Below are positions 53,185 through 60,067 of a stretch of DNA of 64,000 bases, piece by piece. The notes under the pieces are model-generated. The model saw only the letters and a program-made list of their open reading frames with translations, was not told the origin of the DNA and ran no database searches. The translations under genes were made by a program, and so were the position numbers. Within the stretch, counting starts at the first letter, position 1. The number at the start of each line of letters is the position of its first letter. This DNA comes from Phormidesmis priestleyi Ana (GTDB taxonomy: Bacteria > Cyanobacteriota > Cyanobacteriia > Phormidesmidales > Phormidesmidaceae). The stretch spans positions 1-64,000 of the forward strand of contig LJZR01000025.1 in assembly GCA_001314865.1 (NCBI GenBank), given 5' to 3'.

Positions 53185-53340
53185 GTTTTAATCCTGACAT
53201 TGCCAGTGCCCAGTTCACCGATACAACATAATAAACGGTGCCAGGTATCGGATCTCGCAAAGCCCCTTGGCTGCGTTAAAACAGAGGTCAAAATAAATAT
53301 TTACAGAGGGCTGAACCGCTTATAGGTTACAGTTCACAAG
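53185..53340. repeat. flanking repeat copy A, downstream of TIR-NACHT-GUN4
   Basis: It shares with 55965-56135 the order GTGCCAGGnATCGGATC, AAAGCCC-TTGGCT, GTnAAAAC, GGnnGAnTnAACCGCTTA and TnACAGTTnACAA. It covers the 3' end and trailer of the gene ending at 53327. It is evidence for duplication of the locus. Confidence 0.75.
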
Positions 53341-55834
53341 TCTGGATGCGAGAGACGAGACCACAACTCCACACAAATGCCCGTAAAATCCCTCCCCCCA
53401 ACGGGGATGCGCCCGTAGGAAGGTGTCCCCGCAAAATCGTATCGTATCGTATCTTCCTATTCCACCCGTTAATTTCACAAAGTTTATTCCATGCCTTAAT
53501 ATCATACCGACCATTTGGAACGCCGCCGCATTCTTCCACATACATTTTTTTCTGAACGCTGAAGCCAAACTTTCCGCCGCTATGCTTCACCCATAGCCCA
53601 TCAATCGCCCTCAGCGGCTCGCAAGGAAAGTTCAGCAGGTCTTCACGCTCAAACCACTGCCCCTCTTCCTTGCCAACTTCCGTAATCATCAGCCGGTAAG
53701 TTTCATTATCGGCTTCTTTCCACTGCCCATTCTTTAGGTAGCGCTCCAGGTCAGCGTAGCGAGCATCGTTCACTTGCTCAGCGACCTCTGAAAACGTGAT
53801 GTGTGAGCCTTTAGACCCAGCGTTCGTGATCTGGCGAAACTCAGCTTTCACCTCATCTATTTGCTTCCGCGTCTCTTGTATGCAGTTATAAGCAAGCGTG
53901 AATTCCTTTTGGCTCATCGCCTCACGAATCAGTTTTGTCGGATTCACCAGCCCTGCATACAGCAAAATCGTCGGCTTCCACCAGTCCTCTTGCAAATGCT
54001 CATACAGCAATGCTTCTCGCTCCGGCTTAGCCGCCACATACGCTGCTGCCAAATACTCCTGAAAACTCAAATGCGCAAACTCATACTCATCTTCTTGCTG
54101 CACAATTAGCTCACTCACCTCCACCACAGGCTCTAAAAAATCTCTCGCTCCCAGCGTTTCTTCCTGCTCTGCCAACGCCTCGCCAACATATTGCAACAGC
54201 GTATGTTGCTCTACTCTCTCCAGCTTTTGTAGCATCATTTCAAACGCTACTCGCTGTAATACCGTTTGCGCCTCGCACTGCGTTAGCAAAGTCTCTAACC
54301 GACGCGCCCTGGGACGATCTCTAAGCTGTAACTGACAAATCTCTCGATACAGCTCCACCCGACGCTTGGGCAAATCCGCCCCTTCATACCGCCGATGAAA
54401 CGTCACAATCATATTCAATAGCAGCGGATTTTTTGCCAGGGCTCTTAGCGCTTGCTGCGCTTCAATTTGCGCTAGCAAATCTTGTGAAAATTCAGCTGCC
54501 CGCTTCTTCACATCTGGCGTATCTCGCCCCGCGTTTGCATATCGCTCTTGGCACCCATACCACCGGGTCACAAAGTCTTGGCGCTGTTCGCGATCAAAGT
54601 CTTTTACCCATAGCGAAGAAGCCAGCACCAGCCGGTTAGCCGCGTCTTGGTCTTGGTAAGCCTTGGGCCGAGAGGTCACCACAAACACCGACTCGCCATA
54701 CTGTTGCATTTGTTCATTGAGCCATTTTGCAATGGCGGGCCGCTGTGCCTTTGCCACTTCATCAAAGCCGTCGAACATCACTAAGGCTCTGCCGCTTCTG
54801 AGCACATCTTTTGCCCAGTCAGCCGGAACCGCCAAATCGCTGGCACCGGCTAACTTTGGCACATGGTACTCACCTATTAGCGCTGGCAAACTCGGCGGAT
54901 TTTCCTGCGCCAACAGTTCCCGATGCTTGCGCAACACCAGCAAAAAAGGCACCATTTGGGGCACATTTTTTTCCGGTTGCTTCGTGCCCATGCGATAGGC
55001 AATATGCTTCAGCAGCGTTGTTTTGCCATAGCCACCCCAAGCCAAAACCGCCAACTGCCGAAACGTAGTTTCACGCTCCGCCTTCGCCAAAAAATCCCAA
55101 ATGCTATAACTGTGCGGCATTTCTGCCATATCCTCAGCCGACAGCCGCTTGTCCGATAGCCGCTTGGCAATCCGTCCAAATCCAGGCGAGCTAGCACTCA
55201 AATCTAGCGCCAACGGCACAAACACATCCCTCAGCAAAGGCACAAAAATGCCTACATGCTGCACCGATCCCTCTGGTCGCAACGCCTGACAATCCGCCGC
55301 CTGACAAGCCAAGTACTGATCTTCAAAGCTAGTCGCCGTTTCTACCGCTCTACTGGTAACGATGGGCTCTAATGACTTTTCTTTACTGGCAGCCGCCCTA
55401 GCCGCATCTGACTCACCATTGGGCCTAATTCCTGTAATGCCCCACACTAGCCTGCCAAAGGGATCGGGCATTTGCCGCCGAAAATCAACCCAGGTTTTAC
55501 CCTTCAGAAAAGTCGGCAGCGCTGGTTCTTGGGGTGCGTTGCCTAGCAATACTGGAATCACCGGGCAGCCGCGCTCTACAAACTCCCGCAAAAACGCTTT
55601 GATTTCCTGCTGTTGCCAGGGGCCAAGTCCTGCATTGCCTACAAAAACAGCAGCTGTCTGAATCTGTTCTATTTGTCCGTCTAAAGCATCCTGCCAGTCT
55701 AACCCAGGCCGTAATTCCCATTCATCTAGCCAAGGCTTAATGCCCTGCGCTTGCAGTTGCTCAGCAATTTTAATGACAGCCGACTTATCTTCACTGTTAT
55801 GACACAAGAAAACGTCAAATCTCTGGTCGGCCAT
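53327..55834 (-). CDS. TIR-NACHT-GUN4 protein, putative NLR-like immune sensor
   Basis: 835 aa. Residues 5-140 are a TIR domain starting FDVFLCHNSEDKSAV, with Glu77 in the GPWQQQE motif at the catalytic position of NAD-cleaving TIRs. Residues 255-600 are a NACHT-type STAND NTPase: Walker A GGYGKTT (267-273), Walker B LVMFDGFDE (351-359), VVTSRPKAY (395-403) and the terminal FAHLSFQEYLAA (586-597). Residues 690-806 are a GUN4 domain (RYADLERYLKNGQWKEAD...GKFGFSVQ...), a tetrapyrrole-binding fold known from Mg-chelatase control. The last 30 residues look like out-of-frame tail. The likely scheme is sensor, oligomerising switch and NADase effector; this role is inferred. It shares its TIR type with the gene at 58536 and its GUN4 with the gene at 56103. 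Confidence 0.88.
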   Translation of the reverse strand: MADQRFDVFLCHNSEDKSAVIKIAEQLQAQGIKPWLDEWELRPGLDWQDALDGQIEQIQTAAVFVGNAGLGPWQQQEIKAFLREFVERGCPVIPVLLGNAPQEPALPTFLKGKTWVDFRRQMPDPFGRLVWGITGIRPNGESDAARAAASKEKSLEPIVTSRAVETATSFEDQYLACQAADCQALRPEGSVQHVGIFVPLLRDVFVPLALDLSASSPGFGRIAKRLSDKRLSAEDMAEMPHSYSIWDFLAKAERETTFRQLAVLAWGGYGKTTLLKHIAYRMGTKQPEKNVPQMVPFLLVLRKHRELLAQENPPSLPALIGEYHVPKLAGASDLAVPADWAKDVLRSGRALVMFDGFDEVAKAQRPAIAKWLNEQMQQYGESVFVVTSRPKAYQDQDAANRLVLASSLWVKDFDREQRQDFVTRWYGCQERYANAGRDTPDVKKRAAEFSQDLLAQIEAQQALRALAKNPLLLNMIVTFHRRYEGADLPKRRVELYREICQLQLRDRPRARRLETLLTQCEAQTVLQRVAFEMMLQKLERVEQHTLLQYVGEALAEQEETLGARDFLEPVVEVSELIVQQEDEYEFAHLSFQEYLAAAYVAAKPEREALLYEHLQEDWWKPTILLYAGLVNPTKLIREAMSQKEFTLAYNCIQETRKQIDEVKAEFRQITNAGSKGSHITFSEVAEQVNDARYADLERYLKNGQWKEADNETYRLMITEVGKEEGQWFEREDLLNFPCEPLRAIDGLWVKHSGGKFGFSVQKKMYVEECGGVPNGRYDIKAWNKLCEINGWNRKIRYDTILRGHLPTGASPLGGGILRAFVWSCGLVSRIQTCEL

Positions 55835-55964: not shown

Positions 55965-56135
55965 AACTGTCTTGCCCCCGATATTGCCGCCGCGCAGTTC
56001 TCAGATGCGACTTACGATCAGTGCCAGGGATCGGATCGTCAAAAGCCCTTTGGCTTCGTCAAAACGGCGATCGCAATAAAAGCTCAAGGAAGACTAAACC
56101 GCTTACAGATCACAGTTTACAACTCTACATACGAG
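55965..56135. repeat. flanking repeat copy B, downstream of TIR-GUN4
   Basis: Matches copy A at 53185-53340 through the trailer and stop region of the gene ending at 56103. Copy B contains a HIP1-like GCGATCGC where copy A does not. Confidence 0.75.
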
Positions 56136-57194
56136 AGAAGAGAAAGCAGAGTAAAAGGTCGTTTGAGTCGGTTTTTCCACAAACATGATAATTGGGAATT
56201 GATTTTGAAAAATCTTTGAAAGATCACAATGAGGCAAGTGTCCTATAGGCGATGACACATCAAACCTAACTGATGATACATACGTTCCTTTCACCTGCCA
56301 ACCGTTAGCCTCGCAGAACTTGTCCCAAGCCTCTTCATGGTAACTACCATCGGCCACACCACCGCAGTCCAAATACAGCTTTGTCTGCACACTAAACCCA
56401 AACTTACCATTGCTATATCTCACCCATAGCTCATCTATCACCCGCAGCGGCTTACAAGGAAAGTTCAGCAAGGCTTTTGGGTCACACCACTGCCCCTCAT
56501 CCTTATCCACTTCCGTAACCATCAGCCGGTAAGTTTCATCGTCTGCTTCCTTCCACTGCCCATTCTTTAGGTAGCGATCTAGGTCAGCGTAGCGAGCATC
56601 AATCGGTTTGGTGGGAATGGCTCCATTAATCGGTTTAGACGGGGGTTGTTTAACCCGTTGTGCTTGTAGCGCTGCAAGCTCTTGCCGCAAAGCATTCAGC
56701 TCGTCTTCTGTTTCGAGTGATTCCCAGGTTACTTTTTCTTGCAGAGGAACGGTACTAGCTACATTCAAGGGGTCAGAAGCTGTAACAGTATCTGGCAATA
56801 CCGACCCACTTACGATAGATGCGCTTAATGCCCTAAAGAATCGATCAGGGGGGAGCATACCCCCTTTTACATCAACCACTTGAAGTCGAGAAACGCTGAA
56901 CCACCGTTCACCTTCCAACAATAACGGAAATATCGGCTTCTTTATTTCCAAAGCGAAACTGAGTTCACACTGAACCCAGTGAGAGTCGTAAGAGCGCGGC
57001 GTCATCACCAGCACAAAAACCTGACACGCCCTTAAGTGCTTTTCGATCTCCCGCTGCCACGCTGCACCATAATCAATCCGGTCATCTAGCCATACAGACA
57101 ACCCTCGCGCTTCAAAAGCACTGATCAAGCTCTTAACATAGCCCTGATCCTCACGGCTATAGCTCATAAAAATAGGATGTGACGCATCAGGCAT
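56103..57194 (-). CDS. TIR-GUN4 protein
   Basis: 363 aa. Residues 6-130 are a TIR domain of a different subtype from its neighbours (PIFMSYSREDQGYVKSL), with Glu77 in SHWVQCE at the catalytic position. A short coiled coil follows (about 163-181, EDELNALRQELAALQAQR), then a Pro/Lys linker. The GUN4 domain (198-321) is nearly identical over its first 35 residues to that of the adjacent TIR-NACHT-GUN4 gene. The tail to 363 is poorly conserved. Without a NTPase domain, signal transfer would have to go through the coiled coil. It is same-strand with the neighbours: 95 bp after the HigA-like gene and 268 bp before the next TIR gene. Confidence 0.87.
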   Translation of the reverse strand: MPDASHPIFMSYSREDQGYVKSLISAFEARGLSVWLDDRIDYGAAWQREIEKHLRACQVFVLVMTPRSYDSHWVQCELSFALEIKKPIFPLLLEGERWFSVSRLQVVDVKGGMLPPDRFFRALSASIVSGSVLPDTVTASDPLNVASTVPLQEKVTWESLETEDELNALRQELAALQAQRVKQPPSKPINGAIPTKPIDARYADLDRYLKNGQWKEADDETYRLMVTEVDKDEGQWCDPKALLNFPCKPLRVIDELWVRYSNGKFGFSVQTKLYLDCGGVADGSYHEEAWDKFCEANGWQVKGTYVSSVRFDVSSPIGHLPHCDLSKIFQNQFPIIMFVEKPTQTTFYSAFSSLVCRVVNCDL

Positions 57195-57289: not shown

Positions 57290-57655
57290 CTAGGACTCTT
57301 GCTGAGGGGTTGCAATTACAGTGGCGCAGCCTTTCGACGGACTCGCAACCGTTTCCACATTCAACTTCAAACCGAGCGCACTTATCACCTTAAAAATAGT
57401 ATCAAACGTAAGACTGCGTTCTCCCGACAGAGCCTTATACAAACTTTCACGCGATAACCCCGAATCTCGTGCCACCTGAGCCATTCCCTTCGACCGAGCA
57501 ATATCGCCCAAAGCCTTAGCAATCAAAGCAGCATCCCCCGCCGCCTCTTCAATACTGGCTTCCAAATAAGCCGCCATTTCCTCCGGTGTCCGCAGGTGTT
57601 CTGCTACGTCGTATGGCGTTGTAATTGTCTTTGTCACAAGGCAAGGCGTCATCAT
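57290..57655 (-). CDS. HigA/HI1420-type antitoxin-like DNA-binding protein
   Basis: About 121 aa from the ATG at 57655. It contains TTPYDVAEHLRTPEEMAAYLEASIEEA and then a helix-turn-helix (MAQVARDSGLSRESLYKALSGERSLTFDTIFKVISALGLKLNVE). This is the 'probable addiction module antidote' pattern, normally paired with a RelE/HigB toxin. No such toxin gene lies next to it. It starts 7 bp after the HicB-like gene stop, so the pair is co-translated. It may serve as repressor for the TIR cluster. The longer frame to 57703 overlaps the upstream gene and is unlikely. Confidence 0.85.
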   Translation of the reverse strand: MMTPCLVTKTITTPYDVAEHLRTPEEMAAYLEASIEEAAGDAALIAKALGDIARSKGMAQVARDSGLSRESLYKALSGERSLTFDTIFKVISALGLKLNVETVASPSKGCATVIATPQQES

Positions 57656-57662
57656 GTTGTAA

Positions 57663-57911
57663 CTAAGCCACGTTGCTATCCACTGACAAACTATCCATTG
57701 CAAACACTTTTGGCTCAGGAAGGGGTATACCGTCTTCTTGAAGCCAAGAAATCATAGACTCAATTACATCTCTACCTTGGCTAGCCGCTGCCTCATAGGT
57801 CTCGCCATCGGTGCAGGGCTGCATAAAATAACGCTCAAAGTCGGGCACATAAACGACATAGCACTCATCTTCGGCAGACCACTGGATGACCATGCTGTAC
57901 TGCGGTTTCAT
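57663..57911 (-). CDS. HicB-like antitoxin
   Basis: 82 aa. SMVIQWSAEDECYVVYVPDFERYFMQPCTDGETYEAAASQGRDVIESMISWLQEDG is the partial RNase H-like HicB fold. AAGGAGG sits just before the ATG at 57911, a strong ribosome-binding site. HicB normally neutralises the HicA mRNA nuclease, but no HicA-sized frame is adjacent. A lone HicB-like protein in an operon with a HigA-like one suggests a regulatory pair or the relic of a toxin-antitoxin locus. Confidence 0.87.
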   Translation of the reverse strand: MKPQYSMVIQWSAEDECYVVYVPDFERYFMQPCTDGETYEAAASQGRDVIESMISWLQEDGIPLPEPKVFAMDSLSVDSNVA

Positions 57912-57932: not shown

Positions 57933-58430
57933 TTAGTCATTTACGCCCGCGATCGCACCCAAAGCATCCGCATACTGCGCCAAATCCTTTCTAAGCGCGT
58001 CCAACTCTCCCCGGACAATCATCTCCTTATCCCAAGCCTTTTCATGCGCTTGCGGACTCATTCCCGTTGGCTTTTGCCCCTCCCACTCCTGCAACAGCGG
58101 ATGCCATTTAGCCAAAAACGGGCGTAGGCCATTGTTGAGCACTGCGATCGCAATTCCCCCCACCGAATCATGCGACGCACCCACATCCGGCCCCGCCTTC
58201 CGCAAAATCTCCCGCGTAGAGCCAAACAAGCTATACAGCGAATTCATCGCCTCTCGCACCAACCCCTCCTGCGGATTCAAACTCTGCACCGCCACCCGCG
58301 TCACCAGCTCCACATATAGCTCCCAAGCCGCATTCCGCTCAGTCGGGTCAACCTCCCAAGACGCAGAACCAATGCCAAAAGGCAGGCTGACAGTAACCTT
58401 TTTCAGTACAGCAGGATTATGTTTTGGCAT
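57933..58430 (-). CDS. conserved hypothetical protein in the TIR island
   Basis: 165 aa from the ATG at 58430 (MPKHNPAVL); an in-frame TTG at 58454 is an alternative. It is mostly helical: WEVDPTERNAAWELYVELVTRVAVQ, LVREAMNSLYSLFGSTREILRKAGPDVG, SVGGIAIAVLNNGLRPFLAKWHPLLQEWE and ELDALRKDLAQYADALGAIAGV. Conserved-looking Trp and Gly residues suggest a real family. I recall similar sequences as unnamed bacterial proteins but know no function. It is 21 bp upstream of the HicB-like gene and same-strand with all TIR genes, so it is probably part of the same transcription unit. Confidence 0.75.
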   Translation of the reverse strand: MPKHNPAVLKKVTVSLPFGIGSASWEVDPTERNAAWELYVELVTRVAVQSLNPQEGLVREAMNSLYSLFGSTREILRKAGPDVGASHDSVGGIAIAVLNNGLRPFLAKWHPLLQEWEGQKPTGMSPQAHEKAWDKEMIVRGELDALRKDLAQYADALGAIAGVND

Positions 58431-58535: not shown

Positions 58536-59954
58536 TCACTCGCCAAATTTTCTATGCAAGAAATCCAAAGTTTTCCTCTCTCTCAATTTACAGACTGCAC
58601 TACGATGAGCAAATGCACCAGAAAACCAGTGAGCCTGTTCTCTCGGGAAAGTTTTAATCCATTTTATACGGACAACCCATTCCGATAGCTCTACGCTATC
58701 ACTATTTTTATGCAGCCCATCCGACTTAAGATCCATTTCAAGCAACGGTACGTTTTGTGGCCCTACGCTGAACTCCTGAATTAGAACCGCTTTCTCTATA
58801 ACAGAGCCAAAGCCAACGTAGCCCGAACCACCTATATAAGCGTAAACCGTGCTGCCAACCTCCAGCTTTTTTATGGCATTTGCAAATCGGGCACCTTGCC
58901 CCGCACTCATGAATTCATACCGCACGCAATCCTCCCATGCCCGCTGCCCGTTGCCCTCTCCTACGTTAACAAACCAATCTCCCGCCCATCCAAATTCTTC
59001 GCGCAAGAACTCTAATGTCGCTTTATTTGTGAGTTTACAGGCAATGTTTTGATTCGCAAATGCACCAACAAACCGACGCGCTTGCTCTTTGGGAAAAGTT
59101 TTAAGCCACTTAACCCCAACAACCCATTCTGAAAGAGCTAAATTATCACTGTTTGCTCCAGGGTATTTGGCTTGTAGCTCTACTTCAAGTAGCGGTGTTT
59201 TCTCTGACCCTACAGTAAAATCCTTAATAGGAATCGCCTTTTGGATGACTTTGCCTAAGCCAACATAGCCCAACCCAGCCATGTATGCATATATAGTGCT
59301 ACCAATTTCTAGTTTCTTTAATGAACCTGAATATCTCACCCCTTGTCCAGCACTTATAAAACCGTACTTTACGCAATCCGCCCATGTTCTGGTTTCTCCC
59401 TCACCTACATGAACAAACCAATCTCCGACCCACTCTAATTTTTTAGTCTCTGTAGTTATTGAATCGGGTTTGATAGTTATTGGATTGGCTTTTATAGTTG
59501 TTGGGTCAGGTATAGTAATTATTGGGTCATCAATAATTGCTTTCCGCTCCCCGGTTATACCCCAAATTAACTGACTGAAGGGATTTGGACTTTGAGAGCG
59601 AAAATCCACCCAAGTTTTTCCTTTGAGAAATAGGGGTAATTTGGGTATTTTTGGTGCAGAGTTCAAAAGCACAGGAATTATGGGGCAGTTTTGATCATTA
59701 AACTCCCTCAAAAATGCTTTTAATTCTTGCTTTTGCCACGGGCCTAAGCCATTGTTACCGATAAAGATAGCAGCTGAATTGATTTGCCCGATTTGATCTT
59801 CTAGGATGTCTTGCCATTCAAAACCGGGACGCAATTCCCATTCATCAAGCCAAGGTTTTATATTTTGAGCTTTTAACTGAGCTGCAATTTCTTTGATAGC
59901 TGGTTTATCCTCACTGTTGTGACATAAAAACACATCAAACTGTTGATTCGCCAT
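58536..59954 (-). CDS. TIR protein with two PUA/EVE-like domains
   Basis: 472 aa from the ATG at 59954 (MANQQFDVF). The TIR domain (5-140) is very close to that of TIR-NACHT-GUN4, with Glu77 in GPWQKQE. A threonine/isoleucine/proline linker (140-172) consists of imperfect repeats. Two homologous domains follow at 174-321 and 322-472. Each begins W-GDWFV-VGEG, then W-DC-Y-F-SAGQG-R, LKKLE-GSTIYAY, GYVG-G-VI and EWVV--KW-KTF. The pattern resembles the EVE/PUA-like folds that read modified nucleic acid bases, so nucleic-acid sensing is a plausible trigger. That assignment is by pattern only. It is first in the island's gene order. Confidence 0.8.
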   Translation of the reverse strand: MANQQFDVFLCHNSEDKPAIKEIAAQLKAQNIKPWLDEWELRPGFEWQDILEDQIGQINSAAIFIGNNGLGPWQKQELKAFLREFNDQNCPIIPVLLNSAPKIPKLPLFLKGKTWVDFRSQSPNPFSQLIWGITGERKAIIDDPIITIPDPTTIKANPITIKPDSITTETKKLEWVGDWFVHVGEGETRTWADCVKYGFISAGQGVRYSGSLKKLEIGSTIYAYMAGLGYVGLGKVIQKAIPIKDFTVGSEKTPLLEVELQAKYPGANSDNLALSEWVVGVKWLKTFPKEQARRFVGAFANQNIACKLTNKATLEFLREEFGWAGDWFVNVGEGNGQRAWEDCVRYEFMSAGQGARFANAIKKLEVGSTVYAYIGGSGYVGFGSVIEKAVLIQEFSVGPQNVPLLEMDLKSDGLHKNSDSVELSEWVVRIKWIKTFPREQAHWFSGAFAHRSAVCKLRERKTLDFLHRKFGE

Positions 59955-60067
59955 AAACACCCTTTATTATTTCTTGACGCCAAAAAAAATTTAACTAAGC
60001 AAAGCGACGCTACGAGATCTTTCGGAGCAGTGTTAGCTCAGTCCGGAAAGCAAAAACCACCTGCTTA

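Follow-up and report, generated by a model that had tools for sequence, protein, structure and literature searches.

A TIR protein with a duplicated EVE-like domain in Phormidesmis priestleyi, a candidate sensor of modified nucleic acid

Phages evade restriction by modifying their DNA, and EVE domains are known to read bases by a pocket/base-flip mode. The EVE domain of the nuclease VcaM4I flips 5mC and 5hmC (PMC7897488). A survey of EVE domains names fusions with nucleases, GmrSD and McrB, and no fusion with TIR (PMC7641849). A search of the open-access literature for TIR-EVE, TIR-PUA or modified-DNA-sensing TIR proteins gave none, and absence from that literature is not proof. The gene described here joins a known kind of reader to a known kind of effector in an apparently undescribed combination, which is rare so far and present in two species.

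The gene is found in Phormidesmis priestleyi Ana, a cyanobacterium (GCA_001314865.1, contig LJZR01000025.1, positions 1–64,000; this whole stretch of 64,000 nucleotides is termed the window). It encodes a predicted TIR-EVE-EVE protein, and its features and neighbors are given in Table 1. An alternative GTG start at position 59960 gives an open reading frame of 474 aa (58536–59960, minus strand). The ATG, which is codon 3 of the GTG frame, is the likely start because an AAAGGG motif sits just upstream of it. Amino acid positions of the protein are given in GTG numbering. Promoter and terminator scans showed no signals above those of shuffled sequences.

Table 1. Features of the TIR-EVE-EVE gene and of the adjoining cluster in the window
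Feature	Position	Strand	Remarks
TIR-EVE-EVE gene	58536..59954	(-)	472 aa from ATG at 59954
TIR_2 domain	59568..59933	(-)	aa 10-131, Pfam E 3.3e-24; W75 and putative catalytic E79
EVE-like domain 1	58998..59441	(-)	aa 174-321, FANQN loop kept
EVE-like domain 2	58539..58997	(-)	aa 322-474, FAHRS in place of FANQN
Conserved protein X	57933..58430	(-)	about 165 aa, about 105 bp past the TIR-EVE-EVE stop
HicB-like antitoxin gene	57663-57911	(-)	
HI1420-like antitoxin gene	57290-57703	(-)	
TIR-GUN4 protein	56103..57194	(-)	TIR class is that of the second TIR-EVE-EVE protein (L015)
TIR-NACHT-GUN4 protein	53327..55834	(-)	TIR 71% identical to that of TIR-EVE-EVE

TIR-EVE-EVE may be a single-protein defence sensor-effector, in which the tandem binds modified bases and activates the NADase activity of the TIR domain, a reading in which we place about half our confidence. 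The first-pass annotation had described a TIR protein, and the assignment is confirmed by a TIR_2 match of 86.1 bits (curated cut-off 28, E = 3.3e-24). Residues W75 and E79, i.e. the catalytic-type Glu and the Trp preceding it, are invariant in all four TIR sequences compared. A TIR with this conserved Trp and Glu fits the NAD-cleaving TIR class, and NAD cleavage is the predicted activity of TIR-EVE-EVE. No nuclease family matches the protein, so that it is not classed as a type IV restriction nuclease. The C-terminal half is covered by no Pfam family at E-values up to 1.

That half consists of two copies of one domain. An alignment of copy 1 with copy 2 shows 82 of 145 residues identical (57%) and 77% similar (E = 2e-64), and the duplication is also seen at the DNA level as repeats of 46 nt (80%) spaced 444 nt apart. 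Paired signatures are present, GDWFVHVGEG and GYVGLGKV in copy 1, and GDWFVNVGEG and GYVGFGSV in copy 2. The internal duplication, the signatures GDWFV-VGEG and GYVG-G-V and the domain coordinates had all been proposed from the sequence beforehand; the duplication is borne out by the alignment, the coordinates are correct and the signatures match exactly in both copies.

The AlphaFold2 model of copy 1, built on 87 sequences with plasmid-record rows left out, has a pLDDT of 94.1 and a pTM of 0.87. In a Foldseek comparison of this model with the PDB, the top match is the EVE protein MJECL36 (2p5d, 2.5e-5), followed by VcaM4I EVE-HNH (2.6e-4) and THYN1 with 5mC DNA (3.6e-4). YTH structures are below these, and an ASCH protein is further down. 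The TM-scores are only about 0.5, which argues for a relative of EVE instead of a close copy. Searches of the PDB at the sequence level with the tandem, a NucS-EVE relative and the family profile gave no real match.

A profile comparison (hhalign) of the family with 28 canonical EVE domains gave a score of 34.5 (P = 5e-5), where the best of 100 column shuffles reached 26.1; the identity to canonical EVE is 16%. The family motif W-D-x-x-R/K-x-Y lines up with the EVE motif WDGVRNYQ, with the family-invariant W193 at the position of its tryptophan, and the GYVGxGxV strand pairs with the EVE PGIxGL strand. Pfam EVE (PF01878) has no match in the window protein, either above the curated cut-off or at E-values up to 1, and it is matched only weakly by five of 93 relatives (best E = 0.0026). 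Because of this the domain is best named EVE-like and is not considered a Pfam EVE member. The assignment to the EVE/PUA superfamily is well supported by the AlphaFold2 and Foldseek results, by the profile comparison and by the restriction-type nuclease partners of the domain. A PUA/EVE-like fold was the proposal of the first-pass annotation, and it holds: EVE, YTH and ASCH structures are the best matches of the copy 1 model, and hhalign agrees.

The repeated domain is the C-terminal module of the PADLOC candidate PDC-S11. The PDC-S11 profile matches the window protein in two stretches (E = 1.4e-101, profile positions 196–355 of 358), and the N-terminal NucS-type nuclease of PDC-S11 is absent, with the TIR in its place. 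Homologues encoded on plasmids display up to 55% identity, and the annotation of most of them is hypothetical, DUF91 or NucS-domain protein. In a scan of 84,980 species 161 relatives were found, and the 80 best of these were retained. In the 93 proteins collected, the domain is fused to a NucS-type nuclease (78 proteins), GIY-YIG (5), GmrSD (4, including proteins of Cyanobacterium sp. HL-69 and Rhodococcus), PLD (2), a KAP NTPase (2) or TIR (2). Among these 93 proteins, the TIR form is found only in the window genome and in a second species of its genus. No relatives are present among 50,697 phage records. Viral contigs have six, all with a NucS-type N-terminus; a PHROGs search gave weak or short matches alone, and BFVD (viral predicted structures) gave a single weak match, an uncharacterised phage protein.

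Two further architectures in this family may be mentioned. In L016 and L020, both from Thiotrichaceae, the EVE-like domain follows a KAP P-loop NTPase, and we know of no description of such a fusion. L028 (5329–6714, plus strand), from a member of the Chloroflexota, combines a NucS-type nuclease with the EVE-like domain, and RAMA is matched weakly at its C-terminus. The counts of partners show the PDC-S11 domain to be a portable EVE-like reader that is used with six or more types of effector, and this helps to name a large unnamed family.

The fold and the partners bear on the ligand. Relatives of the EVE and YTH kind bind RNA too. The tandem could read RNA, e.g. modified or cleaved tRNA or rRNA from infection, and the TIR would then answer to RNA and not to phage DNA modification. 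The Foldseek matches to YTH RNA readers and ASCH are consistent with this, as are the RNA roles proposed for EVE domains (PMC7641849). However most partners of the domain are DNA-restriction-type nucleases (NucS-type, GmrSD, GIY-YIG, PLD), and RNA is considered an unlikely ligand. The same EVE survey lists partners among the modification-dependent restriction nucleases that match those found here (PMC7641849). We infer that DNA is favored over RNA as the ligand of the sensor-effector proposed above.

Two copies of the domain in one protein are present only in the window protein and its homologue (L015, in genome G441), among the 93 domain-bearing proteins. Copy 1 retains all residues tabulated as at least 90% conserved in the family, except at one position that lies past its aligned end. 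The family motif FANQN is present in copy 1; it is replaced by FAHRS in copy 2 and by FVHRG in the second copy of L015. The wedge residue Q128 and the pocket residue Y130 of VcaM4I belong to the C-terminal part of a domain of 147 residues (PMC7897488), and the FANQN loop may correspond to this wedge/pocket loop. If so, copy 1 would be the main reader, and copy 2 would have an altered ligand or a structural role.

In G443, which represents a third species of the genus, an open reading frame (L134, 10471–11121, minus strand) has a single copy-2-like domain behind an N-terminal stretch that may be a membrane helix (maximum Kyte-Doolittle 1.35). A TIR-GUN4 gene is about 4 kb away, X and several toxin-antitoxin-like genes are nearby, and FANQN is absent from this domain as well.

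The loss of the FANQN loop in copy 2 and in this single-copy relative would be expected if the domain has unmodified nucleic acid or a different ligand as its target, or is mainly an oligomerisation scaffold, with the TIR activated by a different infection cue. Such a role is improbable, since copy 1 retains the highly conserved residues noted above and the recurrent fusion to nucleases is consistent with a specificity module. Reading of modified bases remains the interpretation that we prefer.

In the domain tree the four tandem copies form a single clade (98/98), near the Klebsiella NucS-type and Thiotrichaceae KAP proteins, and the second copies of the window protein and L015 pair with each other (100/98). 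This points to a duplication that is older than the divergence of the two TIR-EVE-EVE genes known so far. The TIR domains have a different history. The TIR of the window protein shares 71% identity with the TIR of the neighboring TIR-NACHT-GUN4, and the TIR of L015 is 57% identical to that of the window TIR-GUN4 and about 20% to that of the window TIR-EVE-EVE. As the tandem is homologous and the TIR class differs, the TIR has been swapped in front of a conserved reader pair. That a TIR is kept in both proteins argues that the coupling is selected. A further protein, L111, has a TIR of the window class and a small C-terminal domain that contains GDLMILNQHARVTHIVEML and is PUA-like by eye; it is not claimed as a TIR-PUA protein because neither Pfam nor EVE nor family profiles match.

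From TIR-EVE-EVE through TIR-NACHT-GUN4 all the genes share the minus strand and are spaced about 20 to 270 bp apart. Besides TIR-EVE-EVE, the cluster contains X, the HicB-like and HI1420-like antitoxin genes, which have no obvious cognate toxin adjoining, and the TIR-GUN4 and TIR-NACHT-GUN4 genes. GUN4 is a tetrapyrrole-binding domain that is known to be fused to TIR (PMC7159879).

Protein X has no Pfam, NCBIfam or PADLOC match, and its AlphaFold2 fold is a helical bundle with no significant PDB match. It is a neighbor of TIR genes in many cyanobacteria, and on plasmids of Streptomyces and Mesorhizobium. Of about 24 near-complete loci in the order, 9 have X within about 3 kb of a TIR that matches the one of TIR-EVE-EVE (tables compared by eye). 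In a Calothrix plasmid it is directly 5′ of a GUN4-domain gene, in Streptomyces it overlaps a TIR gene, and in a Mesorhizobium plasmid part of X matches within a patatin-like protein that adjoins TIR genes. X may be a general TIR partner, i.e. an unnamed TIR-associated module, and a possible accessory of TIR-EVE-EVE. It has no match at all in G441, and neither X nor neighbors of the TIR-GUN4 and TIR-NACHT-GUN4 types are present within 6 kb of the L015 gene. The presence of two further TIR proteins and X in the cluster could suggest that the TIR half is an interaction or signalling adaptor for them and not itself an NADase, but this is very improbable, as the catalytic-type Glu and preceding Trp are kept in all four TIRs and the L015 gene is without such neighbors.

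In the sensor-effector reading, the tandem EVE-like domains would bind modified bases in the pocket/base-flip manner, and DNA of an invading phage is the most likely carrier of these bases. Two-site binding, or a cluster of proteins on densely modified nucleic acid, would bring the N-terminal TIR domains together. The assembled TIRs would then cleave NAD+, either to deplete it or to produce a signal, and the infected cell would be stopped. As the reader elsewhere directs nucleases of the modification-dependent restriction type, including GmrSD relatives, the simplest reading is that the output has changed from cutting to NAD cleavage. The location amid other TIR proteins supports this explanation; against it, just two TIR-EVE proteins were found, in one genus.

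The host genome has two cytosine-5 methylases, plus N6/N4 methylases. Bulk 5mC is an unlikely trigger because the host's own cytosine-5 methylases would set off a simple 5mC reader in the host itself, except where context or density counts. The trigger could be a different modification, a particular sequence context or the combination of two marks. More broadly, and tentatively, duplication of the reader of a widespread modification-dependent restriction family and its coupling to a TIR NADase may let the cell meet base-modified phages by abortive infection and not by restriction; the two diverged readers may need two marks, which would spare host methylation. The architecture of the gene is suggestive of a defence in which modified phage nucleic acid is sensed and NAD is attacked, in place of DNA cutting.

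Among known systems, PDC-S11 has the same C-terminal domain family (the profile match given above, and 55% identity with Klebsiella plasmid proteins). PDC-S11 has one copy after a PD-(D/E)XK-type (NucS/DUF91-type) nuclease, whereas the window protein has a TIR and two copies. The GmrSD-type (DUF262/DUF1524) proteins of Cyanobacterium sp. HL-69 and Rhodococcus have the reader family in common with the window protein, but differ in having the GmrSD restriction effector and a single reader copy. VcaM4I is likewise a PUA-superfamily reader of similar fold fused to an effector. It is a remote relative (10% identity in the Foldseek alignment) and its effector is a nuclease, whereas the window protein has a TIR and its reader is C-terminal and duplicated. 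The TIR_2 domain with its conserved Glu is a likeness to bacterial TIR defence proteins, and Thoeris, CBASS TIR, short-Argonaute TIR and the cyanobacterial TIR-GUN4 proteins similarly couple a TIR effector to a sensor, which is either fused to it or a separate partner. The sensors of the known TIR defence proteins detect nucleotide signals, guide RNA/target DNA or tetrapyrroles and are not EVE-like readers, whereas that of the window protein is EVE-like. If the proposal is true, a sensor that turns DNA modification into a suicide signal of NAD loss would join two defence logics so far seen apart.
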